Assembly (NCBI GenBank): GCA_963921825.1
Contig: OY997594.1
Coordinates: forward strand, 6,577,001-6,641,000
Reading direction: 5' to 3'
From: Erodium maritimum
Taxonomy: Eukaryota; Streptophyta; Magnoliopsida; Geraniales; Geraniaceae
DNA length: 64,000 nucleotides
The notes under the pieces: generated by a model
Told to the model about the DNA's origin: nothing
Database searches by the model: none
The model's input: only the letters and a program-made list of their open reading frames with translations
Translations under genes and position numbers: made by a program
Shown: positions 21,883 to 46,229 of the stretch, piece by piece
Layout: each line of letters begins with the position of its first letter
How positions within the stretch are numbered: position 1 is the stretch's first letter

Positions 21883-22033
21883 ATAAATTAATAATTATTT
21901 CAATCCATTCAAAGTATGCAGGGTTAGTAAAATAAAGTTAAAAACGGTAAAGTATTTATTTAACAAATAATAACTCTTATTTGTTCAGTTATTGTTATAG
22001 AGAAACATCTATATATATTTTAAACCATAGGAG

Positions 22034-22046
22034 TATTATAAATAGG
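22034..22046 (+). promoter_or_regulatory. TATA box of peptide gene copy 1
   Basis: TATTATAAATAGG; the same motif precedes copy 2 (39948-39960) and copy 3 (about 45048-45061). A start site about 30 bp downstream gives a short first exon ending CAATCAAG/GTATGTTC at 22102, a 5'-UTR intron (22103-22322), and an exon that starts 24 nt before the ATG. Confidence 0.65.
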
Positions 22047-22346
22047 CAGGGATAATTAATCTTTACCATATAATCATTTACTTCAAAACAAATACAATCA
22101 AGGTATGTTCGGGTTGTTTATACACTAATGTGATTCTACAGTTTTTTATTATTATATTAATTTAAGAGTTTCTGAGTTTAAGTCTTATATTCTTTTTCAT
22201 AAAAACATCATTAATATTTTATGGGTTAAGACAATGATATTTTATTTTTACAAGTTTGATATTAATAAGAATAAAAACTCAAATACAAAAGATGTTTCAA
22301 CGTGATATGTAATCCATTTCAGGTTTTAGTCTCGGGCGGACAAATT

Positions 22347-22597
22347 ATGGCTTCAGTAAAGTTTCAACTTCTCAATGTATTCCTCCTCTGTCTTGTATTC
22401 TTTGCTCAAGCGCAATCTTCGGTTTATGAAGAAACATTTCAACCGCAGGCGACTCTAGTGGAGAAATTAGAAAACGGTAATATGACTTACTCTTAATGAT
22501 ATTTAATCGTATCGGTAACATCTAAAAAATGGGTTGTTTTACAGGGAAAAAATACTCTTGCAGAGGGTCAGAATTATGTACGCTTGGCCCCTGGTAA
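22347..22597 (+). CDS. Secreted two-cysteine peptide precursor, copy 1 (60 aa)
   Basis: Coding exons 22347-22476 and 22545-22597, with a 68-bp GT-AG intron (22477-22544). A hydrophobic signal peptide (residues about 8-20, LLNVFLLCLVFFA, likely cut after AQA or AQAQ) is followed by a short acidic prosegment (SSVYEETFQPQATLVEKLEN) and a C-terminus GKKYSCRGSELCTLGPW. KK at 45-46 could be a processing site; Cys49 and Cys55 could form a one-disulfide ring around RGSEL. TATA box, 5'-UTR intron and clean splice sites indicate a working gene, not a random ORF. Not recognised as RALF, PSK, CLE, CEP, PIP or defensin. Probable role is an apoplastic signal or antimicrobial peptide, which is inference. 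Confidence 0.75.
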
Positions 22598-23198
22598 TAA
22601 AACAAGTTGCGAAGCGAGATTTTGTTTACATGATCTTAATATAAAAAAAAATTGTTCTATACAATAAAATTATCAGTAAAAATATAATTATTACGATAAA
22701 TTTAACGATAAGATTTTGTCCTTTATGTTTCATTGTTTCCCAACCTATAAACATTATTATATGGTTAATAAAAGAAGTAATCTATTACAAGGCTAAACAA
22801 TTATTCTAATTATTAGATATGCTTAATTCTAACCTCTATGTTAATAGAATTAATTTTACCAAAATTTAGGTAGACTTCAAGTATTTCTATGGATGACTAC
22901 AAAATGAAATAATAATAAATATCAATCTAAATGTAAAGTTAATAACCCATGCACGCGATAAGTGGTGATCACACGTGACATACACATGTCATTTCAAAAT
23001 ATATATGAGATAATATAATATACAAAAAAAGTAATTTGCAATCATTTTAAAATTGTTACATGACCTTTACCTTAACCCTAGCCGTCGATGCGACTTGGGT
23101 TTGGCACAAATGAGGTTGACTTCCCATTGAAGAGCGACTCTTCAATGTCGTTGTGTGGCTCTTCGTGATGGTGGGGGATTGCCCCCCGAGAATTTGCG

Positions 23199-23387
23199 AT
23201 GAATCAGAATACAGAAGGAAGTATCGCGGGAGTACCAGTCCCTATTAGGGCTGAGACGTGGTTTAAGGGCCGGTTGTCCCTATCTGAGGCCGCGACGAAG
23301 GCGCTTTTTGGCGGCGGAGATCTCTCCATAATCAACACAAATAGCGTTTACGGATCCAACAGCTGGACAATAACACTTTTAACCTAA
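23199..23387 (+). CDS. Hypothetical 62-codon ORF of the repeat unit, copy 1
   Basis: Starts MNQNTEGSIAGVPVPIRAET and ends in a Gly/Asn/Ser-rich stretch (GGGDLSIINTNSVYGSNSWT). It lies about 600 bp downstream of the peptide gene on the same strand, after GGTGGGGGATTGCCCCCCGAG. It differs from the copy at 43729 at about eight residues, a high share for otherwise near-identical repeats, and the third copy is no longer open. No family recognised; it may be a gene fragment caught in the duplication and not an expressed gene. Confidence 0.25.
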   Translation: MNQNTEGSIAGVPVPIRAETWFKGRLSLSEAATKALFGGGDLSIINTNSVYGSNSWTITLLT

Positions 23388-23453
23388 TAGAAACTCAGAT
23401 CTTATTTGATGATCTCATCGCCTTATGTAGGGAACACGATACAGTAATCTTGG

Positions 23454-24507
23454 TGTTGGAATAGGTTTGTTGCCTTTTCTCATTGATGTTAGTTATTTAA
23501 ATACAACTCAATATTCTGATCTTGTTTTGAATACAAGATATACATCAGTAATTACAAATTACAAATTCATAACATATATTATCTAACACGCCCCCTCAGT
23601 CTGAACGGGAGGAGGCAAGACGTTCAGACTGGATCGGAAATCAGTGAAAAGAACTTGTGGGAGTCCTTTCGTAAAAATATCAGCAATCTGAGATCTGGAG
23701 GGAACATGCAGAACCCGAACATGACCTTTAGCAACTTTTTCTCGAACGAAATGTCTGTCAAGCTCGACGTGCTTCGTTCGTTGGTGTTGAACGGGGTTAC
23801 CTAACAGGTAAATAGCACTTACATTGTCGCAGTAGACCAATGTAGATCGAGCCAACGGACAATGTAACTCCAAAAGAAAATTTCAAAGCCAGCAAGATTC
23901 AGACACTACACTTGCGACACCTCTATATTCAGCCTTCGTGCTGGATCGAGATATGGTGGGTTGTCGCTTGGATGACCAAGAAATAAGATTATCGCCCAAA
24001 AATATGCAATAGCCGGATGTAGATCGGCGAATTTCGGGACATCCAGCCCAATCGGCATCAGTGTAAGCAACCAAGTCCGAGCCCGAGGAGGAGTACAGGT
24101 GAATGCCCAAATGAAGAGTTCCCTGAACATATCGGATGATGCATTTGAGCGCCGCCATATGACCATCCCGAGGATCATGCATGTGAATACAGATCTGCTG
24201 TACTGCATAGGAGATATCCGGCCGAGTGAATGTGAGATACTGCAATGCCCCTGCAAGACTGCGATAAAGCGTCGGGTTAGCGAAGGGAGCACCAGCAGAG
24301 CTACTCAGTTTCGCCTTGGTGTCAACGGGAGTAGCAGAAGATGAACAAGAACTCATGCCAGCTCTGATACCATGTTGGAATAGGTTTGTTGCCTTTTCTC
24401 ATTGATGTTAGTTGTTTAAATACAACTCAATATTCTGATCTTGTTTTGAATACAAGATATACATCAGTAATTACAAATTACAAATTCATAACATATCTTA
24501 TCTAACA
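23454..24507 (-). mobile_element. Internally deleted Ty1-copia element with short LTRs
   Basis: Two 135-bp LTRs (23454-23588 and 24373-24507; TGTTGGAATAGG...TATCTAACA), almost identical by eye, flanked by the perfect 5-bp duplication CTTGG (23449-23453 and 24508-24512). On the minus strand a primer-binding site TGGTATCAGAGC (initiator-Met type) lies next to the right LTR and a G-rich polypurine tract next to the left one. The internal 0.8 kb keeps only the end of the reverse-transcriptase region and RNase H, with the Copia words YADADWAG-like and DIFTKGLP. Gag, protease and integrase are absent. A broken, recent fossil; units 2 and 3 show the empty site. Confidence 0.9.
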
Positions 24508-24872
24508 CTTGGGTATGTTTTTAATTATAACAAGGTAGTAAAACGATTGTCAAGGCGTTGCAGCGCTAATATTTTATTTTGTTGGGCTCTTATTTACTTA
24601 TGGATTTCAAACCTTAGCGTACAAGGTAACTAATTTGGTGGATGAACTAGAATTCTTCACAGCCGACCACGTCTCAAACTTGATACCAGTTTAATGTTTA
24701 TGGTGTGTGACCGGTTTTTCCTGATACCTTTTTCTTATATATAAAAACCTTGCTTTTAAGAAAATCACAATATGAATATAGATTTTTCTTAAATAAAATA
24801 TAGTTTTTCATAATATCTTAGATTAATAGTTGTATAAATATATACATACATAACTAATACAATTTAATACAA

Positions 24873-26003: not shown

Positions 26004-27654
26004 TTAATACAATACAAACATATTGTTATTTATTTCCCCTCTAGAAATTCAAGTCCAGTTCGAGTTTATTTCTAACGGTTGGCATTCTAAATAACATTAT
26101 TTATCGCTTCTCATTAGTATTTTGTACATTGAAACATGATTTACCCTGATTAAATTAATATGATATATGAAGTTGTGAACAAATTTGTTTCTAATAAACT
26201 ATAAAAAAAATTAATAAGCATCAGTGTACAATTCACGAGTCCATCCTTATTAGTATAAATAACAAAATAGGAAGAACTCGACGCTATTAGTTTTCAATAG
26301 TTTTATTTTACATACATCACAAAATAATTTGATATGATATATAATTTCCAAAACTCAACCTTAATGCGTTAACATGTTTTTATTTTATTTTGTAACAATA
26401 CATGAACCAAGTAATTACAATACATAAAATAAAAATATGTCACTCGATAAACTTTACAAAAAAAATTAGGATACACAATACAGTTGTTTTGATAATTGTG
26501 ATAATATTTTATTATTTGTATTATTGAGTTTCAGCTTATAAAAAAATAATTTATGAGTATGTTTTATTTAATAATGTCACGCCCCAAATCCGGTTTTGAC
26601 CGAATTCGAGACGCGACTTAAGATAAAATAATACTAAAATAATAAAGGTAAATAAATCAGGTTCAATGCAATATTAAATCTCCAAGAGTACAGTGAGTCA
26701 ACAGCTCAACAGGTAAAAATAACCGAGTCAAACAAATAAAGATGGAGTACGTCACTAGACTCTAGCTAAACCCTCGTCACCCCCAAGCTCCGAGAGTCCT
26801 GCTAGTACTGCTCCCGCTCAACACCTGAAACACCACAAAGTAAGGAGGGGTGAGCTTACGCTCAGTAGGAAAAGTAGTTAATGTTCGAAACCACAGTTTA
26901 TCACCACGGGTAACCGTTCAATTAGGGCATACTAGTACATCACGACTATTAGAAACAATTTAAATGATTACTCCAAGACAACACTTGGCCTTCACTCATG
27001 CACAACCCGTAAAACAAACTCACAACGAACCGAACTCATACCACTTTCCACAACTAGCTCTTGACACCCGTCACCTAACAATTCTCAATGAACAACGCCT
27101 ACGGTTATCTCACAACCGACCACACGTGCGAACTCGCAATGCAACACAGGAATCAGGTACAACATCACCTCGAGTCACCAGACACTCTCACAAGACCAAA
27201 GTCACACTTAACCCAATGCACAAAGCCAGACAGCCCGCAGCCCGCACGACTCACACAACAGACAACGCACAAAGCCCGACAACACGCACATCACACACAG
27301 CAGACCCACCCTAAACTTAGTATAACCATTTCCAACGTCTCCTGCTATCGCAACCCGTCCACTTATGTCACACCGGAACACGAAGCCTCGGTCCCGACAC
27401 CCGGTTACCGATCACTTTCACAAAGTTATAAACATACTTAGAATAAATGCACAAAGCCAAACAGCAAGAAAAGAGCACACAGCGAGATACACACAGATAT
27501 CGTACAACAATTCCAACGTCGTTGAATGCACTAAGCCATTTGCACTGAGCCTCTTATATCGTACTGGACAACACAACATCAGTCCCGATATATTCCCCTC
27601 ACTGAGACTGGGGGTAACATCTTCGACCGGAAATCCCTCAGTCCGATGTCTTCC

Positions 27655-27870
27655 ACGCACACAGACACGGGCCATACTCTTCCCGTCACACAGACTCGGG
27701 AAATACTCTTCCCGTCACACAGACTCGGGCAATACTCTCCCGTCACACAGACTCGGGCAATACTCTTCCCGTCACACAGACTCGGGCAATACTCTCCCGT
27801 CACGCAGACTCGGGCAATACTCTTCCCGTCACACAGACTCGGGAATACTCTTCCCGTCACATAGACTCGG
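27655..27870 (+). repeat. Minisatellite in the 3' LTR (28-29 bp x ~8), mirrored at 37805-38015
   Basis: Unit CACACAGACTCGGGCAATAC plus TCTTCCCGT, alternating 28 and 29 bp. The same array stands at the equivalent place of the 5' LTR, so it pre-dates the insertion. Confidence 0.85.
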
Positions 27871-30800
27871 GGCACTGATCACGCCATCGTTGGCCTCGAT
27901 ACACCACGCCGGAACCATCATTTGGTGTAAGTACCACTCCGGTTACGCCGTCTCTTGGGACACACAACAGAGTCTAACACACAACACACAACCATTACTG
28001 GTCCCGGTATACCAACTGGACCATCTCAACATAGCACACAGCCGGTCTATCACTCACCCGGTCATATCACAACCAAGGGTTTTTATCATCAAACACGGCA
28101 CACTTGCCCACACACAGTCACATCATGCAACACTGAGTATAATCTTATTTAGACTCTCACACATCGAGTATAGCACACAACACGCAAACCTAGGTCTCGA
28201 CATGACCCATCTACCAGCACATCAATTTCCCAAGTATTGAAAGCGGATAAAGCGAAAAAAACTAGTGAATCTCGTCCTACAAGTCACTAGACTCGTTCGT
28301 TTAATCAATTAAGTAAAGTAGTCGTTCCTATATGCTAACTAGGACCTTTCCGGTTATTATTAAACCCTAATCATGCACACTAGTAACTTTCCGTAATTAA
28401 GCAGCTGCGTCTCCTAGCTGCTGACGTCCTGGCCTAACTCCGGTCTTCTAGGGAGATATCCAAGAAGTCCAAGTCTGGGTTTTAACAGATAAAAAGTCCA
28501 ATCAGTTCTGGTATGCCCAAAGTCCTCAGAAAAGTCCAAAACGTCCAATTTTAAGTCTAATTAAGTAATTAATTATTTAATTAATTATGTCCGACTCGGA
28601 TCCGCGAACCAGACCGGATCCGACCCGGTCCATGAACCAGACCCGGTCAGACCCAGATCCGACCCGGACCCAGCTCTAGACCCAACCCAAACCCAGTTCC
28701 AGACTCGGCCCAAGCCCGAGTCCAGAACCCATCCAGACCTGGGCCTGGCCCAAGGTTCGTTTGAAACTGGTCCGAGTCTCTCGTCCTGGCCCAGGACCAT
28801 CCAGCCCAATGCTCGGCTTGGCCCAATGCCTGCTCAGGCTCGAGACCAAGTTGGCGATGACTCCGGTGAGCCATGGCTGCTCCGACCACCACCCACGGCA
28901 TCAGGCGAGGCTCGAAGAGGGGAAAAAGAGGCGGAGGGTGGCGTCAGGGGCTTTGGCGAGGGTGTAGCCACGGCGGCGCTGGCTCGTGCGTGAACCCACG
29001 CCACTCCCGTCACAGATCTGGAAATTGCGAGGTCGTCGGCCAGTGTTCCGACCAAATCAGCTCGCATCGAGCTCGGAAAGGTATGAAATCAAGCGAGGCG
29101 AGGCTGGGAAGAAGGAAAGAGGGCGAGGGAGGACGAACCCTCTTCGTTCCTCTGTTGATGTCGTTGAAACGAGCTCGGAAGCTTGGAACCAGAGCGCTCC
29201 CTGACTGCTCGCGTTGATTCCGGCGGCGATGGGTTCGAATCGAACTCGGGAAGAAGGTGAGGGCGAGGGAAGGTAGCAGGAGAAGGTGAAGGAGGTGGAG
29301 GAGATCGAAGAAGAACGGAGAGAGAGAGACGGCGGCGTGGTTTCGCTCGGGTTCGCGAGAGAGAAACGCTGCACGAGGTTGAAGATGCCTCGAGAATCGC
29401 GTCCAGAAATGGAACTCGAATGGTCGCGTTCCTAGGGTTAGCTCCGAAGGGCTGGGCTTCGCGTGCTGCTGGGCTCGGTCACGTGTGCGGGCCTGGCGCG
29501 TCTCAGATTGGGCCTAAGCTGGCCCAATCCCTACTCAGTCCAAATTTTTACCTCTTTTCCCCCTTTTTTTTATTTTTCTTTTCAAAAACACTTGTTGCAA
29601 AAACCTACCCCAACGTTCCAAATTGCAAAAAATACCCTTTTAAAACAAGGTGGTCTTTACAGTCTACCCCCCTTAAAAGAATTTCGTCCTCGAAATTTAA
29701 AACGTACGCGTTCCACTTGATCTGATCTCAAGGAATATCCGATTAACACTCCTAAACCATCACCCCTCATGCACACGGGAACACTTACCCCAGTTAGTCG
29801 ATACCGGATTCCTCCATCGGTAGAGACGTAGCGCCTACTTCCACCGCTTGGTCGAGACATCCTATACCGGAACCGTCCGTCGGTATAGGTGTCATACCAA
29901 AGCCCTTCTCACATCGCACTTAAAACGGATTCAGCACACAGACACTTGTCCTCGGCCACTCACTCGTTTAACCAAGTATCGCACACCCAACAACAAAAGA
30001 AGTCCACGTCCCGTGACTCGGACTATCATCATCGGACTCCAAAAGTGGTCATGCCCTGACCAACTACCCACGATAACCCAAGTAAATAACACGCAAACTC
30101 AACCAATTTACACGTCGATTCACCCACCGTACCACGAAACTGGAGACACTACAAGAACCAGTCCCTCAGGCTCCGAAAGGCTTTGATACCTCGCGCGTAT
30201 TTCATCCTCGCGCTTCCGCGTCAACTCTGTGCGGTTCTCAATCGTCCACGATCACGCGACCCCTCATTCGCTTCTCAAGTAACTCGGGACCACACTGTCC
30301 ACTATTAAACCTCAAGTGCGCCCTGCTTGGGCAATTGACCCGACCTACCATCCAACGCTTCGTACGGTGCCATAATGTTACTGGCCTGAAAGCGTTGTGC
30401 TAGTCGTACTCGGTGATTTTTTTCCGGATACCTTGTGAGGTACTCTCAGTTCTACCCCACACTGCACACACTCGTCAACCACAACGTACTCAGTCGGGGT
30501 GTCAAACGAGCCTTCAGCTCGGAAAATGAGTGCTCATACTCATCAGCTCGCACTAGTTCCGCTCCCTTACTTGTCAAAACAGTCATCGCAGTCAACACAG
30601 ATCAAATCACAGGGTCAAAACGACAATCAACGTCACTCCTGGTATCCCAGAACAAAGGGCCGGCTTCCTATGTCTCGGCTTGATCACACCATACCGAAAT
30701 ACCTCATCGGTCTAGGGGTCTTCCCGGAACACACATCGGGGCAAAACTCAAGCTCGCATCTCGGACCGGCATGCCTTCGGTCGGGTATCTTCCCGTCACT

Positions 30801-31211
30801 CGGGATATAAATCACACATGCAGTACTAAGCAAACCACACCACGGCGAACACATCACCCCAAAGATGCTCATCGATACAGCTTACCAAGAACATCTCGTA
30901 GGTCTAGATATCCTATACCGAGATCTCTCGTCGGCATAGGTCTCACACCGGAAGTCTAGGTCGAGGTATCTATAGCGCAACCGCCACCGATATCGATACC
31001 AAACTGAAACACTGGAACAACATCGGCTACGGCGTCGAACTGAAACACGCCCTCAAATAATTTTACCGAAAATAGACGTATCTCCGAACTCAAAGCTTCG
31101 GTCAGGATATCCCATACCAGAATACAACTTCTCTCGGAACATACATCAAGAAAGTCTCACGCATCACAATGCCATAGTTCGACCACGGTATACCCACCGG
31201 TCAACCTTCCA

Positions 31212-34200
31212 TGTAAGACCCGCCCCCGGTCGATCCCGGTAGAACCGGTGAATCCTAGCTAAGTTTGACTTTCGGCCGGAAAAGTCAACCGATGACTCGG
31301 AAAGTCAGTCGGGACCTTTCCGAGGCCCAAAAAGCTTAGCCGTTAGCACAGTTAGCTTAGTTGGGTCGTTTCCTTCAGTTTGACTGTAATATTGTTAAAG
31401 TCAACTGTCGGTCAAACTCGGGCTTACTATCGGTTATTTTTCGATAAATCTTGGAAAGCTGGAAAATTATTAAGTAGGAGTGACCACACATGACACTTGT
31501 CATGCTTGGCTTGGAGGATGAGAGTAGGGGATTCAAATGACCCTCATACCCTCCTAAGTTACCTTTAAAGGGATAAGACCTTAAGGGCTTTTGAGTAAAT
31601 TGACATTTTAGGTCATTTAAAGGAAAGGGAGCAACAATTCAGCCTATTTCCTCTTGTTTCAGCCGAAAATCACTAGTAGAGAGGAGAGGAGGAGCTCACT
31701 TTCTTGAGGAAGAAGATAGAGAAGAAAGCTTGGATTTTGGAGCTTGTTCTTGGTCCTTTTGCCTTCATTTTCACTTCATCTTCTCCATCTCAACTATCTA
31801 GAGGTAAAGATGCTCTCAACTCTCCATTTCTTCCACTTCCAATCTTTGGGTTTTGTGGGTATTGGCTTAAAAGTTGAAGAACTTTCTTATTTGATTGTTG
31901 CTTGGAGAAGAAGTAGTGAAGTAGGTTGTTGGATTGAGTTTTGGATGAAGTTTGATGAACCCATTGAGGGTGTAGCTGCTGGGTATCTTTGGTTGATTAT
32001 TTTGGAGCTAGGAGAGTTTAGAAATGGAGTTTGTGTTGAGATTTTCGTGAAATTCGAGTTGGGGAAGAAAGGGGAAGGAGCTGGTCAGGTCTGATACGGA
32101 ATCTGACCCGGACCGGGCCAGGTGCCGGCACGGCATGCCGCACGGAACGGGCCTGGTACCGGCACGGCACACGGCACGGCACACGGCACGGGACGGACGG
32201 GAGTCCGGCACGGAACTTGATACGGTCCGTGTCGCTCTCCGGGCCGGTTTGTGACGCGTTTCGCGCTGGATTCCGGGCCGGCCTGTGACAGGGTCCGTGC
32301 CATGTTCCGGCATGGCTAGCCACACGGTCCGTATGGCATTCCGGATCAGATCCCCAGAGCCCAAAACCCTTCCTTTTAGCTCAATTTGATTCCCACATTT
32401 CCTCTTCAAACCTTGATCCATTTCTGAACATTGTTGTGTGTTTTGAGGAGAAGAACACTTGGTTGAGGAAACTAATTTGTGGTCTTTTGGTGGTTCAAAA
32501 CCTTGGAACCAAGCTAGGAAAGAAGGAAGAACGTGGACACGAGTTAGAGGAGCATTTATCACGCCGGGACCCGAGTGAAGGACGGAGTGGTGACCACCGG
32601 GCTTATCATCAGAGTGTTGAGAGGAAGACCTCGAGGTAGGGAAAGCCTTAACCCCTCGTTTATGATGCTTAGTCTGCATATTAGGCTAATAAAATCGGAA
32701 AGGTCCTAGAAATGCATGTAGGATGCGAATAACTAGCTTAATCGTCTTTCAATTACTAATAAACGGAAGTGTCTAGTTGTGAATGATTAGGATGCCAATC
32801 ACTAGTGTAACTCGCTTTCAATACTTGGGAATTGTTTGTCTGGTAGAGGAGCCTTGGCAAAGCCCTCGGATTAGTTGCGTGTTAGGATCACATGCTTGGT
32901 TGTTGGTTGCTTAGTGGATAGGCTAAAGAGTCTAACGAAACTAGTTGAATTGCATGTGTGAATGCTCGTTTGAAGGTTTTTATGAGTGGTTGATTAAACT
33001 CGTACTTGATCGTTGATTGTATTCGAATGATTACTTGATTTACTTAAATGGTTGCTTGGAGCATCGAGTATGACTGGTTGTACCGAGCGGTGCAATCAGG
33101 TGATCGATGCCCCGTTGGTTCGAGACTGGTAAGTGAACGGTAAGTTGTGATTGTGTGATTGGTGTGCTGTGGTTATGTGATTCGTGTACTGTGTGTTGTG
33201 GTGAATTGGTGATGTGTGAATTATGTGTGATAATGAATTGGTGGTTGTTGGGATTGGATTATTTCGTGTTTCGGTTTGAGTGCGTTATTCAATTATGAAC
33301 TGTTTATTATCGAATTGCCCAAGTGTACGCTTCCTATGGGAGTAGTACCTTGGTTCCCGAGGACCTAAAACACTTTGGAGACGTTTCTGAGACTTCCGAC
33401 GATATGTGCCCTGAAGGGTGTTTCCGATAGTCTCAATGATATGCGTCTCCTCTGGATTGGAGGGAAAATCCGAGAGGACACATCATATGTGGATCGGAGG
33501 GTGGAGACTTCATGTGCCACGGCATTGGTTTGGTTACCTATTACTCGTGTTTGTTAAGATCTATCTCGTTGACTTGCTGCTGACTTCATTGAGTTTAAGG
33601 TCCACCTTGTTATATGTTTTCCCTACTGAGCGCAAGCTCACCCCTATGAGTTTATTGTTGTGTTTACAGTCTTGATTGAGGAGTAGAAGCTCGGGAGCTT
33701 CTCGGTGTGGGTGCTTTGTAGAGACTTCGTTCTTTTCACTTTTCTGTTTTGAACAAACCTTGTGGAGGATTATTATTACACCCCTGGAGGGTTATTTGTG
33801 TTTTAAACTGAATTTTGTGGTTTTGAGTTTCTTATTGGAGATTTTCAGGAACTAAATGTTGAATTATTGCTTTATTGTCATTTATTACTAGTCATGCCTC
33901 GAGTCCGGGCAAGAACCGGATCTGAGGGCGTGACAATTTGGTATCAGAGCTTGGTTTCATTTGAAACAGGTGTCTTATGAACTGATTTTCAAACCTCGGA
34001 CCTAAGTCAATTAGGTGGGTAGAGTTAGGGAGTCTGAGTCGTGAGTCGCTTTAATGGTTGTCCTAAATGGAACCTTACACTACGATGTTTGCATTACTTG
34101 ATTGGTATCCTCTCCCTAGTGATCGGTGAAGCCGAATGGTTGAGAGCGGAATTGGATTAACGGTCAATGACCGACCCGCTATACATGCATGGTAGGGTGA

Positions 34201-34957
34201 GCCAACGGTTGGTGGTGTTGCCCTTTTTGGCGTATTACTTCGAAAATTTTCAAGTTGTTGTTGGGTCCTGTTCAAGTTTTGACTTGTGTGGTTGACTGCT
34301 TGTCTGGAGCATGAGTACTCCATGTGTGCTGATATTTAGTGTTTTGGGTGGGGCACGAGAACCCCGTATCCCGTTGTATGAGAACTTGTTTGGGACACGA
34401 GAATCCCGTATGCCCTTGTGTGGTGAGATTGGGACACGAGAATCCCGTATGCCCTTGTGTGGTGAGATTGGGACACGAGAATCCCGTATGCCCGTGTGTG
34501 GTGAGATTGGGACACGAGAATCCCGTATGCCCGTGTGTGGCGAGTTTGGGGCACGAGTACCCCGTAGTATTTGGGAGCACGAGAACTCCGTTCATGGATT
34601 GCGTTGTGTACTATAGGAGCATGAGAACTCCGTTTATTGATTGTGTGATGTCTTTGGCAGAGCATGAGAACTCTGCGTACTTTTGTCTTGTGAATTTGTG
34701 TTGGTGCTTGTCCCGCTTAAGCGGAGGGTTAAGGGAAAATACGAATGGGTCATGCCGAATTTTCAGTAGAACTAAAATGTTTACACCATCACTGGTTGAC
34801 TCAGGGGCGTCACTGTAGTTGAGCATGATGGTTCGATGTCCAGTTGTTACAATGAGGTTCGGGGACGCCCGAATCAGGTTTTCATTTATTGCTTTATTGT
34901 CATTTATTACTAGTCATGCCTCGAGTCCGGGCAAGAACCGGATCGGAGGGCGTGACA
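31212..34957 (+). mobile_element. Nested Tekay-like element (family B), truncated, inside the 13.2-kb element
   Basis: 5' LTR 31212-33935 (TGTAAGACCCGCCCCCGG...GAGGGCGTGACA), then TTGGTATCAGAGC as primer-binding site (TGGTATCAGAGC at 33939-33950), about 0.9 kb of non-coding internal DNA, and only the last 80 bp or so of the 3' LTR (to 34957). Flanked by the perfect duplication TTCCA (31207-31211 and 34958-34962), so the loss of internal and LTR sequence came after, or together with, insertion. Plus orientation, opposite to its host element. Broken; no coding domain. Confidence 0.88.
34345..34580 (+). repeat. Tandem repeat in the nested element (39 bp x ~5)
   Basis: Unit built on GGGACACGAGAATCCCGTAT and GCCCTTGTGTGGTGAGATT, with degenerate copies on both sides. 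All frames stay open over short distances because of the periodicity, which explains the spurious ORFs on both strands here. Confidence 0.85.
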
Positions 34958-37900
34958 TTCCACAACATAACACGTCGGTCTCCACATAACACACGGTTGT
35001 AGTCCAACACAAGAAGGCCCCCAAGAACGGTCAATCCTCACTAATCTCATGCGCAAGGCACATACTTTGTCAAACCACTCACCCGTAACTGGGGTATCAG
35101 AACATAGGGTCGTCTCGAGCCTTACTCTTAAGTCTAACTTCTCAGCAAGGGTAAAAGAAAACGGAAGAGTGCGACGCCTGTGGGTTATGGCCCACCGCGC
35201 TTTCGCTGCGCCACTCTGATCTCATCTCTAATTGGTCACCTTCCCTGACCAGTCTGACTGCCTGCCGGTACTGCTGCGGCCCTCCACCGCTCGGTACTCG
35301 TCTCTGACGTACCGGCTGCCGACGGTGTGATCACACTGGGCCCCCGTACTAACATGACAGACCCTAACGATGCTCTTGGTCCTGGCTGCCTCATATCGTC
35401 AGACAGAGCCTGTGGCCGGAAGAACCCTACCGTTTTCCGCCCCCTCAGTTCCCGAATCTCGCACGGTTCCGCATCACAACTCGGTCGCTGCCGAGTCTTA
35501 CGGACTCTCGCGGTCTCTCTGTGACCCTGCTCCACTGTTGTTGTCGTAACCACTATCCCCAACTACATCCGAAACATCAAGATGAGGACTCGATCCAAAT
35601 TCTGGGCTCGGGGACCTCTCTCAAACTTCTTGCATCCAAACGCCTTGACGACCACCCAAACGGGTGCAAACGGTCCACACCGTAACTCTGGCCTCGTACC
35701 TCATCTCTTATACTCCGTCCTGTTGAAGCCTGGGACCTGCTAGTGTTGCTCCTCTTAACCTCCCCAATGGGAGTAACCCGGGCACTTGTGCCCCCAACGG
35801 CTTACCTCTCCTACCTCGAGGTGCCACGCCGCAAGTACCCTTCACATGGGTAACGCCCACGTTCAGTTTCTTACTCTTAAAAGAACAACGCGCTTAAAAT
35901 AACTAACGTCACACACAGTCCACCACACTAGTACTTAAAGTAATAATATACTTAGTAAAGTAAAGTCACACAATTGCACACATCAAAGAAAACAACACAC
36001 TAGTGCTTCACACATGTCATATATGCACACAGATCATATATACACACCACAGGGTTACACCCCGTTTCAAACAGCAATACTTTCACACTTAAGTCACACA
36101 GACTACCACTTAAACTCCAAAGCAATTTCACAAAGTCCAACCTCGATTCAGTTCAAGTTCCTAACACATTCTCGTTCCAACATAACATTCGTGTTTATCT
36201 CTCGTCGTTACAACCCCGTTCAAGCGTCCCCGAACTACGTTGTAACCACTTGACATCCCCCCATTCACGTCCGGCTACAATGGCCCTTATAGCCAAACCG
36301 TGATGGTACATACACTTTAGTTTCTGCAGAAAATCGGGCAGGACCCAATCATAAATTACAATAACCAACCGCTTATGCGGGACAACCCGTTACCAAAAGC
36401 ACACCGCACTCAATCACAATTAAAACACAACAGTTTATCTCCACTTTTACACCTCGGGTCTTGGTAATCTCACTCTTACCGCCCGGCCAAGTCCAATCTT
36501 GGACACAGTTAAGTCAAAACACGACAACAACCACACAGGTTCAACAAGTCCACGGCACTCAGGCCGGACGCTTCACCAATCCGAGACTCTTCCGTCCCGT
36601 TCCTATGCATAAAACATCTCCGACTTGCGTGACCGATACACAATAACCTAACGACCCACTATACCCACCTAGGTGACATACGGTCCAAGGTTTTGAAAAT
36701 CATTTCAAAATGAAACCAGGCTCTGATACCAAATTGCCATGCCCCAAATCCGGTTTTGACCGAATTCGAGATGCGACTTAAGATAAAATAATACTAAAAT
36801 AATAAAGGTAAATAAATCAGGTTCAATGCAATAAAAAGCTCCAAGAGTACAGTGAGTCAACAGCTCAACAGGTAAAAATAACCGAGTCAAACAAATAAAG
36901 ATGGAGTACGTCACTAGACTCTAGCTAAACCCTCGTCACCCCCAAGCTCCGAGAGTCCTGCTAGTATTGCTCCTGCTCAACACCTGAAACACCACAAAGT
37001 AAGGAGGGGTGAGCTTACGCTCAGTAGGAAAAGTAGTTAAGGTTCGAAACCACAGTTTATCACCACGGGTAACCGTTCAATTAGGGCATACTAGTACAAC
37101 ACGACTATTAGAAACAAGTTAAACGATTACTCCAAGACAACACTTGGCCTTCACTCATGCATAACCCGTAAAACAAACTCACAACGAACCGAACTCATAC
37201 CACTTTCCACAACTAGCTCTTGACACCCGTCACCTAACAATTCTCAATGAACAACGCCTACGGTTATCTCACAACCGACCACACGTGCGAACTCGCACTG
37301 CAACACAGGAATCAGGTACAACATCACCTCGAGTCACCAAACACTCTCACAAGACCAAAGTCACACTTAACCCAATGCACAAAGCCAGACAGCCCGCACG
37401 ACACACACAACAGACAACGCACAAAGCCCAACAACACGCACAACACACATAGCAGACCCACCCTAAACTTAGTATAACCATTTCCAACGTCTCCGGCTAT
37501 CGCAGCCCGTCCACTTATGTCACACCGGAACACGAAGCCTCGGTCCCGACACCCGGTTACCGATCATTTTCACAAAGTTATAAACATACTTAGAATAAAT
37601 GCACAAAGCCAAACAGCAAGAAAAGAGCACACAGCGAGATACACACAGATATCGTACAACAATTCCAACCGTCGTTGAATGCACTAAGCCATTTGCACTG
37701 AGCCTCTTATATCGTATTGGACCACACATCATCAGTCCTGATATCTTCCCCTCACTGAGACTGGGGGTAACATCCTCGACCGGAAATCCCTAAGTTGATG
37801 TCTTCCGCGCACACAGACACGGGCCGTACTCTTCCCGTCACACAGACTCGGGCAATACTCTTCCCGTCACACAGACTCGGGCAATACTCTCCCGTCACAC

Positions 37901-40255
37901 AGACTCAGGCAATACTCTTCCTGTCACACAGACTCGGGCAATACTCTCCCGTCACGCAGACTCGGGCAATACTCTTCCCGTCACACAGACTCGGGAATAC
38001 TCTTCCCGTCACATAGACTCGGGGCACTGATCACGCCATCGTTGGCCTCGATACACCACACCGGAACCATCATTCTGTGTAAGTACCACTCCGGTTACGC
38101 CGCCTCTTTGGACACACAACAGGGTCTAACACACAACACACAACCATTACTGGTCCCGGTATACCAACCAGACCATCTCAACATAGCACACAACCGGTCT
38201 ATCACTCACCCGATCATATCACAACCAAGGGTTCACATCATCAAACACGGCACACTTGCCCACACATAGTCACATCATACAACACCGAGTATAATCTTAT
38301 TTAGACTCTCACACAACGAGTATAGCACACAGCACGCAAACCTAGGGCTCAACATGGCCTATCTACCAGCACATCCATTTCCCAAGTATTGAAAGGAGAT
38401 AAAGCAAGTAAACTAGTGAATCTCGTCCTACAAGTCACTAGACTCGTTCGTTTAATCAATTAAGTAAAGCAGTCGTTCCTATATGCCAACTAGGACCTTT
38501 CCGGTTATTATTAAACCCTAATCATGCACACTAGTAACTTTCTGTAATTAAACAGCTGTGTCTCCTAGCTACTGACGTCCTGGCCTAACTCCAGTCTTCT
38601 AGGGAGAAATCCACGAAGTTCAAGTCTGGGTTTTAACAGATAAAAAGTCCAATTAGTTCCGGTATGCCCAAAGTCCTCGGAAAAGTCCAAAACGTCCAAT
38701 TTTAAGTCAAATTAATTAATTAATTATTTCCGACCCGGATCCGCGAACCAGACCCGGATCCGACCCGGTCCAGGAACAAGACCCAGTCAGACCCAGATTC
38801 GACACGGACCCGGCTCTAGACCCGGTCCAGACCCGGTTCCAGACCCAGCCCAAGCCCGAGTCCAGAACCCGTCCAGACCTGGGCCTGGTCCAAGGTCCGT
38901 CTGAAACTTGTCCGAGTCTCACGTCCTGGCCCAGGACCAGCCGACCCAATGCTCGGCCTGGCCCAATGCCTGCTCAGGCTCGAGACCGAGCTGACGATGA
39001 CTCCGGTGAGCCATGGCTGCTCCGACCACCACCCACGACGTCAGGCGAGGCTCGAAGAGGGAAAAAAGGCGGAGGGTGGCATTAGGGGCTTTGGCGAGGG
39101 TGTGGCCACGACGGCGCTGGCTCGTGCGTGAACCCACGCCACTCCCGTCACAGATCTGGAACTCGCGAGGTCGTCGGCGAGGGTTCCGACCAAATCAGCT
39201 CGCATCGAGCTCGGAAAGGTACGAAATCAAGCAAGGCGAGGCTGGGGATGGAGGAAAGAGGGCGAGGGAGGACGAACCCTCTTCGTTCCTCTGTTGATGT
39301 CACTGAACCGAGTTCGGAAGCTTGGAACCAGAGCGCTCTCCGGCAGCTCGCGTTGATTCCGGCGGCGATGGGTTCGAATCGAACTCGGGAAGAAGGTGAG
39401 GGCGGGGGAAGGTAGCAGGAGAAGGTAAAGGAGGTGGAGGAGATCGAAGAAGAACAGCGAGAGAGAGACGGCGGCGTGGTTTCGCGAGAGAGAAACGATG
39501 CGCGAGTTTAATGATGCATCGAGAATCGCGTTCAGAAATGGAACTCGAATTGTCGCGTTCCTAGGGTTAGCTCCGAAGGGCTTGGCTTCGCGCGCTGTTG
39601 GGCTCGGTCACGCGTGCGGGCCTGGCGTGTCTCAGATTTGTCCCAAGCTGGCCCAATCCCTACTCAGTCCAAATTTTTACCTCTTTTCCCCCTTTTTTTT
39701 TTTATTATTTTCTTTTTCAAAAACACTTGTTGCAAAAACCTACCCAACGTTCCAAATTGCAAAAAATACCCTTTTAAAACAAGGTGGTGTTTAGAAATAA
39801 ATTAATAATTATTTCAATCCATTCAAAGTATGCAGGGTTAGTAAAATAAAGTTAAAAACAGTAAAGTATTTATTTAACAAATAATAACTCTTGTTTGTTC
39901 AGTTATTGAGATAGAGAAACATCTATATATATTTTAAACCATAGGAGTATTATAAATAGGCAGGGATAATTAGTCTTTATCATATAATCATTTACTTCAA
40001 AACAAATACAATCAAGGTATGTTCGGATTGTTTATACACTAATATGATTCTACAGTTTTTTTATTATATTAATTTAAGAGTTTCTGAGTTTAACTCTTAT
40101 ATTCTTTTCAAAAAAACATCATTAATATTTTATGGGTTAAGACTGATATTTTGTTTTTACAAGTTTGATATTAATAAGAATGAAAACTCAAATACAAAAG
40201 ATGTTTCAACGTGATATGTAATCCATTTCAGGTTTTAGTCTCGGGCGGAAAAATT

Positions 40256-40506
40256 ATGGCTTCAGTAAAGTTTCAACTTCTCAATGTATTCCTCCTCTGT
40301 CTTGTTTTCTTTGCTCAAGCGCAATCTTCGGTTTATGAAGAAACATTTCAACCGCAGGCGGCTCCAGTGGAGAAATTAGAAAACGGTAATATGACTTACT
40401 CTTACTGATATTTAATCGTATCAGTAACATGTAAAAAATGGGTTGTTTTACAGGGAAAAAGTACTCTTGTAGAGGGTCAGAATTATGTACGCTTGGCCCC
40501 TGGTAA
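40256..40506 (+). CDS. Secreted two-cysteine peptide precursor, copy 2 (60 aa)
   Basis: Coding exons 40256-40385 and 40454-40506; 5'-UTR intron 40017-40231; TATA box at 39948-39960. The precursor is identical to copy 1 except for AA-P in place of AT-L at residues 35-37 (QAAPVEKLENG). Exon 2 has two substitutions against copy 1, both synonymous (Lys and Cys codons). Same signal peptide and C-terminal KKYSCRGSELCTLGPW. The gene starts only about 460 bp from the right edge of the 13.2-kb LTR element, so any distal upstream regulation has been displaced. Confidence 0.75.
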
Positions 40507-41087
40507 TAAAACAAGTTGCGAAGCGAGATTTTGTTTACATGATCTTAATATAAAAAAAATTGTTCTATACAATAAAATTATCAATAAAAATATAATTATT
40601 ATGATAAATATAACGATAAGATTTTTTCCTTTATGTTTCATTGTTTCCCAACCTATAAACATTATTATATGGTTAATAAAAGAAGTAATCTATTACAAGG
40701 ATAAACAATTATTCTAACTATTAGATATGCTTAATTCTAACCTCTATGTTAATAGAACTAATTTTACCAAAATTTAGGTAGACTTCAAGTATTTCTATGG
40801 ATGACTACAAAATGAAATAATAATAAATATCAATCTAAATGTAAAGTTAATAACCCATGCATGCGATAAGTGGTGACCGCACGTGACATACACATGTCAT
40901 TTCAAAATATATATGAGATAATATAATATACAAAAAGAGTAATTGGCAATCATTTTAAAATTGTGACACGACCTTTACCTTAATCCTAGCCGTCGACGCG
41001 ACTTGGGTTTGGCACAAATGAGGTTGACTTCTCATTGAAGAGCGACTCTTCAATGTCGTTGTGTGGCTCTTCGTGATGGTGGGGGAT

Positions 41088-43705
41088 TGTCACGCCCCAA
41101 ATCCGGTTCATGCCCGAACTCGAAGCGTGACTTGAGTAAAACGGTTTTCAACACTAATTAACCATCAACAAGTTCATAAATCCTTCAAATAAAACTTAAA
41201 TCAACATAACTCAGTTTAAAACATAAATAAAACCCTCCAGGGGTGTAATAATAATCCTTCAACATGGTTTGTTCAAAACTAAAATGAAATAAAAACGAAG
41301 TCTCTAATAAGACACCCACACCAAGAAGCTCCCGAGCCTCTACTCCTCAATCAAGCCTGTAATCACAACAATAAACTCAAAGGGGTGAGCTTGCGCTCAG
41401 TAGGGAAAATACATAACAAGAAGGACTTTAAACTCAACAATTTCACCAGTAAAGTCAACAAGATAACTCTTAACAATTGCGGGCAATAGGTGATCCAATC
41501 AATGTCGTGGCACATGTAGTCACCACCCTCCGATCCACATATGATGTGTCCTCTCGGATTTTCCCTCAAGTCCGGAGGAGACGCATATCATTGAGGCTAC
41601 CGGAAACAACCCCCTGAGGGCGCTTATCATCGGGATTCTCAGAAACGTCTCCAAGGGACTTTATGTCCTCGGGAACCAAGGTATTACTCCCGTAAGAAGC
41701 ATACACTTGGGCAATTCAATACCAATCAAATAATAATGAGTAACACACTCAAGCGAGACACGAAGTAATCCATTCCCAACGAACACCATTCCACTATCAC
41801 ACATAGCTCACGAATCGCCGTTTCATCACAACACACAACACACGAGTCACATATCCATAGCACACGAATCACATAACCACAACTTACCATTTACTTACCA
41901 GTCTTGACCCGTCGGTCCATCGATCACCTGATTGCACCGAGTGGTACAACCAGTCATACTCGATTCTCCAAACAACCATTTGAGGAATCAAGCAATCATA
42001 CAAATACATTCAACAGTCAAGCACAAGTTCAAGCAACCAATCATGTAAACCTTCAATCGAGCATTCAAGCATGCAATTCAACTAATTCCATTAGACTCTT
42101 TAGCCTATCCACTAAGCAACCAAACAACCAAGCATGTGATCCTAACACACAACTAATCCGAGGGCTTTGCCAAGGCCGCTCTACCAGTAAAACAATTCCC
42201 AAGTATTGAAAGTGAGTTACACTAGTGATTGACATCCTAAGCATGCATTACTAGACACTTCCGGTTATTAGTAATTGAAAGACAATTATTCTAGTTATTC
42301 GCATCCTATAGACAATTCTAGGACCTTTCCACTTTTATTATCCTAACATGCATACTATGCATATTAAACGAGGAGTTAAGACTTTCCCTACCTCGTGGTC
42401 TTCCTCTCAACACTCTGATGTCACAAACGATAGTCACCACACCGTTCTTCATACGGGTACCGGCAAGGTCTACGGTCTTCAAGATCTTCGTTCTTCAAGG
42501 TCTTGAGGTCTTGAACATAAAACAACTCCAATTAGACTCTCCTCAAACAGTAACAAAAGTCCCCAAAACCCTTCCAAACGTTCAGCTCAAAACCAAGATC
42601 AACCAAGGTGAAAAACCCCCAAAGCAACCCCCAAACTGCTCGGCCACAGATCTGGTCACAGACCCGTGACGCCAACCCTCACGGTTACCGTCACGGAGCC
42701 GTGACGAGCGCCGTCACGGACTACCTCACGGAGCCGTGACATCGCCCGTCATGGGATCCGTCACGGATCCGTGGCGCTTCAGGGCAGTTTCGCCCTTCTT
42801 CAACCTCCAGCTCCTTTTCTCCGAAAATCCACCTTCAAACTCCACATTTAACTAATTCCAACTCCCAAAACAGTCAAATACCTCCAAAACTCCTCTACTC
42901 ATGGTAGGAATCAACAAATAAACAAGTTTCTAATGATTCTCCAAATCATAAACAACTCAAAAGCTCCAACAAATCCATGGGTTTCTAACCAAAACCAACA
43001 AAACTTCTCATCAACATCATCTAACACCATTTCTACTCAAACCCAACAACTTCTAGCAATTCCAAGCCAAACCCATGAAAATAGATGAAGGGAAAAGAGA
43101 TTTAGAGAGTTCCATTACCTCTAGGAGAGTGAGATGAAGAAGATGGTGAGGATTTGGAGAAGGGATGACTAGAGAATGACTCCAAGTAGCCTCTTTTTCC
43201 TTGCTCCTTCTTCAAGACTCCATGGGAGCTTCTCTCTCTCTCTCTTCTCCTCCAAAACATTCTGCTACTCCACAAAATGAATTGGTTTTTGCTTTACCAA
43301 TCTCATATAATACCTAGATGTGTCAAATGACTAAAAGCCCTTTAGCTATTTCCCTTGTATAGGCTTTTAGGAGGGTATAATGGTTCAAGACCACTCCCAT
43401 TTCTCTCTTCCAACCAAAAAGGGACAAGTGTCCAAGTAGGTCCTTTAGTTTTCCAAACTAAATTCCAGCCCAATAAATAAAGTTGCTTTAGTCGACGAAA
43501 AGTCCAGTTTTGACCAAATTTGACTTCCTCCAACATTATACTCAAACGAAAGGAAATTTTCCAATTAAGCCAACCGTGATAACGGCTAAGCCTTTTGGGC
43601 CCCAGATAAGCCCCCGAGTGACTTCCTGAGTCATCGGTGGGCTTTTCTGGCAGAAAGTCAAACTTGCCTTAAAAGTTACCGGTTTGACCGGGAGCGGGTC
43701 TTACA
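41088..43705 (-). mobile_element. Solo LTR, Tekay-like (family B), in unit 2
   Basis: 2.62 kb, TGTCACGCCCCAAATCCGG at the left and GAGCGGGTCTTACA at the right (minus orientation), homologous to the 5' LTR at 31212-33935. Flanked by the perfect 5-bp duplication GGGAT (41083-41087 and 43706-43710). The uninterrupted site GTGGGGGATTGCCCCCCGAG is visible in units 1 and 3. A fossil remnant without internal domain. Confidence 0.9.
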
Positions 43706-43728
43706 GGGATGCCCCCCGAGACTTGGCG

Positions 43729-43917
43729 ATGGATCCGAATACAGAAGGAAGTATCGTGGGAGTACCAGTCCCTGTTAGGGCTGAGACGCGGTTTAAGGGC
43801 CGGTTGTCCCTATCTGAGGCCGCAACGAAGGCGTTTTTTGGCGGCGGGGATCTCTCCATAATCAACACAAATAGCGTTTACGGATCCAACACCTGGACAA
43901 TAACACTTTTCACCTAA
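43729..43917 (+). CDS. Hypothetical 62-codon ORF of the repeat unit, copy 2
   Basis: Homologue of the ORF at 23199, starting MDPNTEGSIVGVPVPVRAET. It sits 20 bp to the right of the solo LTR that split this block, so any original promoter is gone. The frame is also open about 15 codons further left into LTR sequence, which is fortuitous. No recognised family; expression is doubtful. Confidence 0.25.
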   Translation: MDPNTEGSIVGVPVPVRAETRFKGRLSLSEAATKAFFGGGDLSIINTNSVYGSNTWTITLFT

Positions 43918-45092
43918 TAGAAACTCAGATCTTATTTGATGATCTAATCGACTTATGTAGGGAACACGATAAAATAATCTTGGGTATGTTTTTAATTATA
44001 ACAAGGTAGTAAAACGATTGTTAAGGCGTTGCAACGCTAATATTTTATTTTGTTGGGCTCTTATTTACTTATGGATTTCAAACCTTATCGTACAAGGTAA
44101 CTAATTTGGTGGAAGAACTAGAATTCTCAGCCGACCACGTCTCAAACTGGATACCAGTTTAATGTTTATGGTGTGTGGCCGGTTTTTCTTGATACCGTTT
44201 TCTTATATATAAAAACCTTGCTTTTAAGAAAATCACAATATGAATATAGATTTTTCTTAAATAGAATATAGTTTTTCATAATATCTTAGATTAATAGTTG
44301 TATAAATATATACATACATAACTAATACAATTTAATACAATACAAACATATTGTTATTTATTTTCCCTCTAGAAATTCAAGTCCGGTTCAAGTTTATTTC
44401 TAACGGTTTGTATTCTAAATAAAATTATTTATTACTTGTCATTAGTATTTTGTACATTGAAACATGTTTTACCCTAATTAAATTAATATGATATATGAAG
44501 TTGTGAACAAATTTGTTTCTAATAAACTATATTTTTTTAATAAGTATCAGTGTACCATTCACGAGTCCATCATTATTAATATAAATAAAAAAATAGCAAG
44601 ACCTCGACGCTATTAGTTTTCAGTAGTTTTATTTTACATAAATCACAAAATAATTTGATATGATAAATAATTTCCACAAACTCAACCTTAGTGTGTTAAC
44701 ATGTTTTTATTTTATTTTGTAACAACACATGAATCAAGTAATTACAATACATAAAATAAAAACATGTCACTCGAGAAACTCTACAAAAAATGTAGGATAC
44801 ATAAATACATTTGTTTTGATAATTGTGATAATATTTTATTATTTATATTATAGAGTTTCAGCTTATAAAATAATAATTTCTAAGTATGTTTTATTTAATA
44901 AATTAATAATTATTTCAATCCATTTAAAGTATGCAAGGTTAGTAAAACAAAGTTAAAAACGGTAAAGTATTTATTTAACAAATAATAACTCTTATTTGTT
45001 CAGTTATTGTTACACAGAAACATCAATATATTTTTTAAACCATAGGATTATTATAAATAGGCAGGGATAATTAGTCTTTATCATATAATCAT

Positions 45093-45503
45093 GGGAAAAC
45101 TACCAATACCTACCCAAAACCATGTCCATTTAACTGATGTTTACCCTGAAGTTTAAAGTTAACTGATGCATACCTTGAAGTTACGACTTGTAACTAAAAA
45201 CCCCTTCTGTCAGCTAAAATGACGAAAATACCCTCAGTGATTTTTTAAAATAATTTTTTACAATATAAATGAAGTTATTTTTAAATAAAAATGAAGTCAT
45301 TTAATAAGTAAATATATATATAAAAAAATAATTTTTTAAACATAATTATTGAAGTGTAGTTGAGGTTATTTTCGTCATTTTAGCTAACGGAGGAGTTTTG
45401 AGTTACATTTCGAAACTTAAGGGTATGCATCAATTAACTTTAAACTTCAGGGTAAACATCAGTTAAATGGGCATGGTTTTGGGTAGGTATTGGTAGTTTT
45501 CCC
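45093..45503. mobile_element. Mutator-type MITE (411 bp) in the leader of peptide gene copy 3
   Basis: Inverted ends GGGAAAACTACCAATACCTA / TAGGTATTGGTAGTTTTCCC, flanked by the perfect 9-bp duplication TATAATCAT (45084-45092 and 45504-45512). Units 1 and 2 have the empty site (CATATAATCATTTACTTC). It lies between the TATA box and the first leader exon end at 45537, so it would lengthen the 5' UTR of copy 3 or move its start site. No coding capacity. Confidence 0.88.
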
Positions 45504-45778
45504 TATAATCATTTACTTCAAAACAAATACAATCAAGGTATGTTCTGGTTGTTTATACACTAATGTGATTCTACAGTTTTTTTATTATATTAATTTAAGA
45601 GTTTATGAGTTTAAGTCTTATATTCTTTTCATAAAAACATCATTAATATTTTATGGGTTAAGACTATGATATTTTATTTTTACAAGTTTGATATTAATAA
45701 GAATGAAAACTCAAATACAAAAGATGTTTCAACGTGATATGTAATCCATTTCAGGTTTTAGTATCGGGCGGAAAAATT

Positions 45779-46029
45779 ATGGCTTCAGTAAAGTTTCAAC
45801 TTCTCAATGTATTCCTCCTCTGTCTTGTTTTCTTTGCTCAAGCGCAATCTTCGGTTTATGAAGAAACATTTCAACCGCAGTCGACTCCAGTGGAGAAATT
45901 AGAAAACGGTAATATGACTTACTCTTAAAGATATTTTATCGTATCAGTAACATGTAAAAAATGGGTTGTTTTACAGGGAAAAAATACTCTTGCAGAGGGT
46001 CGGAGTTATGTACGCTTGGCCCCTGGTAA
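45779..46029 (+). CDS. Secreted two-cysteine peptide precursor, copy 3 (60 aa)
   Basis: Coding exons 45779-45908 and 45977-46029; leader intron 45538-45754. It differs from the other copies only at residues 35-37 (S-T-P: QSTPVEKLENG). Exon 2 carries two substitutions against copy 1, both synonymous (Ser and Glu codons). The C-terminal 16 residues are unchanged. The leader holds a 411-bp MITE, so expression may differ from copies 1 and 2 although the protein is intact. Confidence 0.73.
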
Positions 46030-46229
46030 TAAAACAAGTTGTGAAGCGAGATTTTGTTTACATGATCTTAATATAAAAAAAATGTTCTATACAACAAAAA
46101 TAAAATTATTACGATACTATTATTTTCTCCTTTTCGTTTCATAGTTTCTCAACCTAAAAGTATTATATGGTTAATAAAATAAGTAATCTATTACCAAACT
46201 ATACAATTGTTCTATTTATTATTTATTAA

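Follow-up and report, generated by a model that had tools for sequence, protein, structure and literature searches.

What is encoded by three small tandem genes in a 64-kb stretch of Erodium DNA (the window, to which all positions refer)? These paralogues lie on the same (+) strand, at 22347-22597 (copy A), 40256-40506 (copy B) and 45779-46029 (copy C). A first-pass annotation had given each of them two coding exons and a 60-residue precursor, and we verified the coordinates, the exon layout, the GT-AG introns and the 60-aa products in 3/3 copies. The TATA box and the 5'-UTR intron that it had described as common to the copies were also both located in A, B and C (Table 1). The 5'-UTR intron has the same borders in all three (AAG/GTATGT ... 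TTTCAG/G), the splice sites of both introns are retained in 3/3 copies, and the GC content of the introns is 22-28% versus 40-49% for the coding exons. Once spliced as predicted, the leaders of both A and B are free of upstream ATGs.

Table 1. Positions of gene parts and inserted elements in the window
Feature	Position	Strand	Detail
TATA box, copy A	22037..22044	+	TATAAATA
5'-UTR intron, copy A	22103..22322	+	AAG/GTATGT ... TTTCAG/GT; GC 22%
Coding exon 1, copy A	22347..22476	+	residues 1-22 signal-like; linker begins at residue 23
Coding exon 2, copy A	22545..22597	+	KKYSCRGSELCTLGPW and stop
LTR retrotransposon, 13.2-kb, between unit A and the B promoter	26575..39795	-	LTRs, target duplication, primer-binding-site-like sequence
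TATA box, copy B	39951..39958	+	TATAAATA
5'-UTR intron, copy B	40017..40231	+	
Coding exon 1, copy B	40256..40385	+	
Coding exon 2, copy B	40454..40506	+	tail and stop
TATA box, copy C	45052..45059	+	TATAAATA
Target-site duplication, 9-bp	45084..45092 (left), 45504-45512 (right)	+	TATAATCAT
Fold-back element, 411-bp, in predicted 5' UTR of copy C	45093..45503	.	termini GGGAAAACTACC
5'-UTR intron, copy C	45538..45754	+	
Coding exon 1, copy C	45779..45908	+	
Coding exon 2, copy C	45977..46029	+	tail and stop

When the window was searched by tblastn with the precursor, the tail and exon 1 (E<=1000, 696 rows), no fourth copy appeared among the best 12 rows per query. The best row after the three genes (49652-49584, minus strand; E 0.15, 39% over 23 residues) was read as a chance match, as it has a single cysteine and its frame continues beyond the W. 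No receptor gene was recognised nearby among the 10 of 115 listed ORFs scanned with Pfam. Upstream of the TATA boxes (437, 155 and 452 bases scanned) no W-box, G-box, as-1, GCC or P1BS element was found on either strand; the same scan returned a few MYB-type and E-box matches and one auxin-type match.

The precursors share one order of parts in 3/3 copies: the N-terminus is hydrophobic and signal-like, an acidic linker follows, and KK then leads into the tail YSCRGSELCTLGPW, which is invariant. On the majority sequence of the copies, from which all hydropathy and charge figures were computed, the highest 12-residue hydropathy is 2.9 (starting at residue 8), A-Q-A precedes residue 23, the best 15-residue stretch after the N-terminus reaches -0.41, and linker residues 23-44 have a net charge of -3, in agreement with the signal peptide and acidic prosegment proposed earlier. 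Net charge is 0 for the 14-residue tail and -1 for the predicted 38-residue mature form. The C-terminal end encoded by exon 2, KKYSCRGSELCTLGPW, is indeed identical in 3/3 copies, and so are the final 23 residues, a comparison among paralogues only. Cysteines are present solely at positions 15 (in the signal part), 49 and 55, leaving one possible pair outside the signal part; C49 and C55 (C-x5-C) are kept in 3/3 copies and are followed by the five-residue end TLGPW, with Trp directly before the stop codon. Two marks of plant small secreted peptides can thus be seen here, a short precursor (60 aa) with a predicted N-terminal signal, and a conserved C-terminus next to a more variable linker (among paralogues only).

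Two elements have inserted among the genes. The LTRs of the retrotransposon between A and B (about 26575-29661 and 36735-39795) are 93.9% alike; their alignment stops 2 bases short of the ends, and the final bases were set by eye. The element is flanked by the 5-bp duplication AATAA (26570-26574 and 39796-39800), and ends 156 bp upstream of the copy B TATA box. The sequence GCTCTGATACCA, similar to a primer-binding site, adjoins the second LTR, which places the element on the minus strand. The fold-back element, which has 81% similarity to its reverse complement, sits between the TATA box and the 5'-UTR intron of copy C; because of its 9-bp target duplication, we presume it to be a Mutator-type MITE. 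Its presence brings a strong hairpin and ten additional upstream ATGs into the predicted leader, and may silence copy C. The earlier description of three intact genes is thus right for all three coding parts but not for the whole of copy C, whose predicted 5' UTR carries this transposon-like insert: the coding part is intact and the leader disrupted. The locus provides a natural comparison between nearly identical copies that have or lack a hairpin element in their leader. As to whether the genes themselves belong to a transposon, their coding parts lie outside both elements, each of which has its own target duplications. It is possible that the genes are carried by an unrecognised element.

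Judged by their sequences, the three copies are homologous by segmental duplication. A and B are 96.6% identical over 1.3 kb, and C is 91.6% identical to A (754 columns) and 91.5% to B (743 columns). Since the copies are related by descent, their mutual likeness is in itself weak proof, and they do not count as three independent lines of evidence. Indeed, this could be a non-functional or unexpressed duplicated stretch, in which the reading frame survives through the youth of the duplications: A and B differ by just 3.4%, copy C has an insert in its leader, an LTR element lies near B, and the 5'-UTR intron is about as little variable (3.7%) as the CDS (4.4%, 8/180 columns). The substitution pattern, however, argues against such a stretch. 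Among the 8 variable codons of the CDS, 5 changes are synonymous and 3 nonsynonymous (P 0.017-0.045), and all of the latter fall in codons 35-37, in the linker, leaving the signal part and the tail invariant as protein. In the tail exon all four changes are synonymous (P 0.002-0.006 with transition weights 1 to 4), although this test was picked post hoc, with the data already seen, and only 8 codons vary in all. With 8.0% of its nucleotide columns variable (4/50), the DNA of the tail exon is itself not frozen. The retention of both introns' splice sites in every copy speaks against decay as well, and we consider a non-functional stretch unlikely. In the unit that starts at the TATA box and reaches some 60 nt beyond the stop codon, 26/611 columns are variable versus 33/290 in the flanks (Fisher P 0.00013; 8 and 24 gap columns removed, respectively). 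Gene conversion among the copies could mimic constraint. The precursor anatomy and the exclusively synonymous changes in the tail exon together support the proposal of a family of secreted small-peptide precursors.

The same substitutions bear on whether the tail is read in the reported frame. Within exon 2, 19 bases from its start, 3/3 copies have an AG that might serve as an alternative acceptor; the resulting frameshift would lengthen the tail and replace its reported sequence by one containing NKTSCEARFCLHDLNI. NKTSCEARFCLHDLNI is retained in 3/3 copies (products of 77, 124 and 92 aa), and from the stop codon onward a single site varies in 58 compared columns. Nevertheless, the ends of the alternative products are not conserved, and past +19 the alternative frame has two nonsynonymous changes, both in copy C (Q to R; N to S), and, on our reading of the alignment, one synonymous change, whereas the reported frame has solely synonymous changes in the tail exon. 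We regard alternative splicing of this kind as very improbable.

Database searches did not place the precursors in a known family. Pfam gave no curated match above cut-off, PDB no match up to E 10, and Rfam no match in the window at gathering thresholds. None of 88 pattern matches in viral contigs and none of 334 in prokaryote contigs was confirmed by tblastn, and eight tail words gave no relevant match, judged by title, in 5.39 million open-access papers. Within these collections, the lack of Pfam and text matches agrees with the undescribed look noted in the first-pass annotation. AtDEF-like gave a subthreshold match in Pfam (E 0.11-0.15; 12.8-13.2 bits versus a cut-off of 25), which extends no further than residues 1-31 and falls mostly in the signal region. 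This match could hint at a degenerate remnant of a larger RALF-like or defensin-like cysteine-rich gene that retained its signal exon and one ring. RALFs, too, are secreted signals, and in their pattern, C1-x9-C2-x12-C3-x5-C4 in an excerpt of PMC11253845, the second pair is likewise C-x5-C. That pattern has four cysteines, however, against two in the Erodium precursor once the signal part is left aside; the tail is set apart from RALF, as from CTNIP below, by comparison of described features. RALF was also absent among the Pfam matches listed to E 10, most of those above about 0.1 being dropped by filters, and the tail, in which all changes are synonymous, also counts against a remnant; this origin appears improbable. 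This agrees with the first-pass annotation, which could match the peptide to neither family: the RALF pattern is lacking, and a defensin would have a multi-disulfide domain, not one pair outside the signal.

The most likely function suggested by these features is that of a processed ligand. We see roughly an even chance that the genes form a family of plant small secreted peptides, yielding an extracellular ligand with a disulfide-ringed tail, with A and B as its likely sources. The signal peptide would be cleaved after residue 22 (A-Q-A/Q) and the linker removed by a protease acting close to K45-K46. The remaining YSCRGSELCTLGPW, ringed by a disulfide between C49 and C55, would serve as an extracellular ligand of a receptor at the cell surface, which would probably be an LRR receptor kinase or a receptor-like protein. 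The product would probably come from A and B, whereas weak translation or silencing is probable for copy C, whose leader contains the hairpin element. To our knowledge, plant prohormones are not classically cleaved at KK, which counts against the proposed processing. As far as we know, few of the described plant signalling peptides seem to have only two cysteines. More tentatively, the genes might represent a new peptide hormone family, with an active 14-residue tail, a seven-residue disulfide ring, a C-terminal Trp and its own receptor, multiplied locally in tandem and with one copy being switched off by the hairpin transposon in its leader.

Small size, secretion, cysteines and tandem duplication, as observed or predicted here, are common to many plant defence peptides; the 38-residue or 14-residue product might instead inhibit microbes directly. 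A precedent is poplar RISP: an excerpt of PMC4756128 reports that this small secreted protein with cysteines is antifungal and also acts as an elicitor. RISP is cationic, though (pI 9.5; same excerpt), whereas the predicted mature Erodium form has a charge of -1, and a single disulfide is possible in it. Because the tail has no net charge, the antimicrobial option raised earlier is the less likely one, and we consider direct inhibition of microbes improbable.

The processed-ligand reading can be set against several known systems. SCOOP/STMP precursors likewise form a family, are short and secreted, and are conserved at the C-terminus, but SCOOPs have a characteristic SxS motif; S-x-S is absent in 3/3 Erodium precursors, and this identity was dropped. 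PawS-derived peptides such as SFTI-1 are small with a single disulfide; they are cut from albumin precursors, and are head-to-tail cyclic through Gly-Asp, whereas in Erodium the last residue of the tail, directly before the stop codon, is Trp. RISP is likewise a small secreted protein, described in the excerpted 2014 report as having no homologue in other plants; in that excerpt, however, it has 82 residues and adjoins an LRR-RLP gene, of which there was none among the 10 ORFs scanned with Pfam in the window. RISP identity was dropped on its four cysteines. Compared as a literal string, C-T-N-I-P is absent in 3/3 precursors. The excerpt of PMC9191895 places the CTNIP4 cysteines at C58 and C68 (C-x9-C) in a precursor ending at residue 70, as opposed to C-x5-C and TLGPW here; on this spacing, membership in CTNIP/SCREW is unsupported, and the first-pass annotation could not match the peptide to that family either. 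The family, whose receptor is HSL3, nonetheless resembles the Erodium genes in its short secreted precursor, its C-terminal active part and the two conserved cysteines there (C49 and C55 in 3/3 copies). In CTNIP4, the C-terminal 23 residues are enough for activity and both cysteines are required for receptor binding (PMC9191895, same excerpt). Our best reading, by analogy, is that the Erodium peptide would work like CTNIP/SCREW, membership aside. The CTNIP precedent indicates that a two-cysteine peptide can have a dedicated receptor, and the differently spaced two-cysteine tail of Erodium is short enough for synthesis, making its activity and receptor directly testable.

The genes proposed in the first-pass annotation were found on the plus strand at the positions it had given, and joining coding exon 1 to coding exon 2 yields the expected 60-residue product in all three copies. 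The coding intron is 68 bases long with GT-AG borders in each; exon 1 has 130 bases and the intron is in phase 1, so that exon 1 encodes the signal part and the linker, and exon 2 the cysteine tail. Translation of the unspliced copies runs into a stop at 49 or 50 residues, giving a product without the ring. The proteins differ at residues 35-37 only (A-T-L in copy A, A-A-P in B and S-T-P in C), and the last 23 residues are the same, as had been claimed of the C-terminus. No fourth copy was seen among the 12 best matches per query (of 696) when the window was searched with the precursor, the tail and exon 1. Splicing to an AG at +19 of exon 2 would open a second frame (22564-22642 in copy A, with matching stretches in B and C) encoding NKTSCEARFCLHDLNI in all three copies; splicing to one at +21 would leave the reading frame as reported but skip the first ring cysteine (53 residues, all three copies).

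Positions of the coding exons, spacer repeats and inserted elements in the window
Feature	Position	Strand	Remarks
Copy A, coding exons	22347-22476, 22545-22597	+	by splicing
Copy B, coding exons	40256-40385, 40454-40506	+	by splicing
Copy C, coding exons	45779-45908, 45977-46029	+	by splicing
Spacer repeat 1	23180-23453 / 43710-43983		
Spacer repeat 2	24508-24872 / 43979-44340		
Spacer repeat 3	26004-26574 / 44332-44901		
LTR retrotransposon	26575-39795	minus	13.2 kb; LTRs 93.9% alike; duplication AATAA
Fold-back element	45093-45503		411-bp near-palindrome; 9-bp target duplication TATAATCAT

Being products of one duplication, three copies are not three witnesses, and chance alone can produce a short spliced reading frame that begins with a hydrophobic stretch. 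We therefore took the substitution pattern between the copies as a useful test. Eight codons vary, five synonymously (17, 46, 49, 52 and 53) and three nonsynonymously (35, 36 and 37). Random changes would be nonsynonymous in 72-78% of cases; the observed numbers were 3 of 8 in the whole coding sequence (P 0.017-0.045 for three or fewer) and 0 of 4 in the tail exon (P 0.002-0.006, in a test picked after inspection of the data). The tail exon is not simply frozen DNA, as its variability (8.0%, 4 of 50 columns) is similar to that of intron 2 (7.4%, 5 of 68). An argument from identity only is weakened by the 5'-UTR intron, which is about as conserved (8 of 214 columns variable, 3.7%) as the coding sequence (8 of 180, 4.4%). 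Between the TATA box and a point some 60 nt beyond the stop codon, 26 of 611 columns vary, versus 33 of 290 in the flanks (Fisher P 0.00013; gap columns, 8 and 24, respectively, dropped); gene conversion could also have caused this lower variability.

Residues 1-22 resemble a signal peptide and end in A-Q-A, the linker (residues 23-44) is acidic with a net charge of -3, and the 14-residue tail after K45-K46 has a net charge of 0 and cysteines at 49 and 55. An invariant tail beside a variable linker would fit a ligand precursor, and the neutrality of the tail speaks against a membrane-active antimicrobial role. The original observation is sound and its reading plausible, with a correction for copy C.

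All three genes do have the TATA box they were said to share; in copy C, however, the fold-back element lies between it (45052) and the 5'-UTR intron (45538-45754). If transcription is assumed to start 31 bases downstream of the first base of the TATA box (a start in or after the element would alter the result), the predicted spliced leader is 59 nt without any ATG in copies A and B; in copy C it grows to 479 nt, contains ten ATGs and has a folding energy of -225.8 kcal/mol. Copy C is probably impaired, and offers a natural test of the effect of a hairpin leader on expression. Another near-palindromic stretch, upstream of copy A (20898-21193), is 84% identical to its own reverse complement over 304 aligned columns.

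Copies A and B are 96.6% identical over 1.3 kb (21883-23181 / 39797-41089), and C is 91.6% identical to A and 91.5% to B (754 and 743 columns). Self-comparison of the window showed that the spacers downstream of A and of B recur in the same order; the locus is therefore a tandem array whose unit is a gene with its spacer, enlarged by later insertions. The LTR retrotransposon separates unit A from gene B, ending 156 bp upstream of B's TATA box, and the site without it is visible upstream of copy C. It carries a plant-like primer-binding site. Its LTRs are 3.1 kb long, with 29-bp tandem repeats (27649-27871 and 37801-38023), and a 39-bp array lies internally (34390-34566). Close to the corresponding point, roughly 470 bp of different sequence (21413-21882) stand at copy A. 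On its 3' side, copy C has a flank interrupted by about 2.4 kb (46222-48616), perhaps a LINE; this insert holds a minus-strand ORF with an RRM (47528-48025). Elsewhere, ORF 3748-5796 encodes a KH domain of BBP type followed by an RRM, an arrangement known from plant splicing factor 1; this ORF and the primer-binding site of the LTR element give the window the look of plant nuclear DNA. Related repeat blocks (56589-57121 and 60720-61380; about 80-90% identity) lie where GC skew is strong.

No Pfam-A family scored above cut-off for any of the three proteins, the sole rows being LEAP-2 and AtDEF-like (E 0.11-0.24, inside residues 1-31). There was no match in the PDB or in viral and prokaryote contig collections, and no relevant paper in the open full-text literature for eight tail words. 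As those contig collections are not of plants, it is quite possible that the proteins belong to a plant family already annotated without a name.

According to a broad review (PMC11756074), the number of cysteines in cysteine-rich hormones ranges from 2 to 16; the first 300,000 of its 467,095 characters contain no two-cysteine or two-conserved-cysteine wording. RALF has a C-x5-C pair in common with the Erodium tail, but four cysteines (PMC11253845). The SxS motif that characterises SCOOPs (PMC8448819) is missing from the Erodium precursors. A relation to RISP was rejected, as RISP has four cysteines (PMC4756128; PMC3975113). In CTNIP4, the C-terminal 23 residues are enough for activity and both cysteines are required for HSL3 binding (PMC9191895). 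These cysteines occupy positions 58 and 68, in contrast to 49 and 55 here, and given this different spacing we do not claim CTNIP membership; with its active C-terminal part and two cysteines, CTNIP4 is nevertheless the closest described plan among those found.
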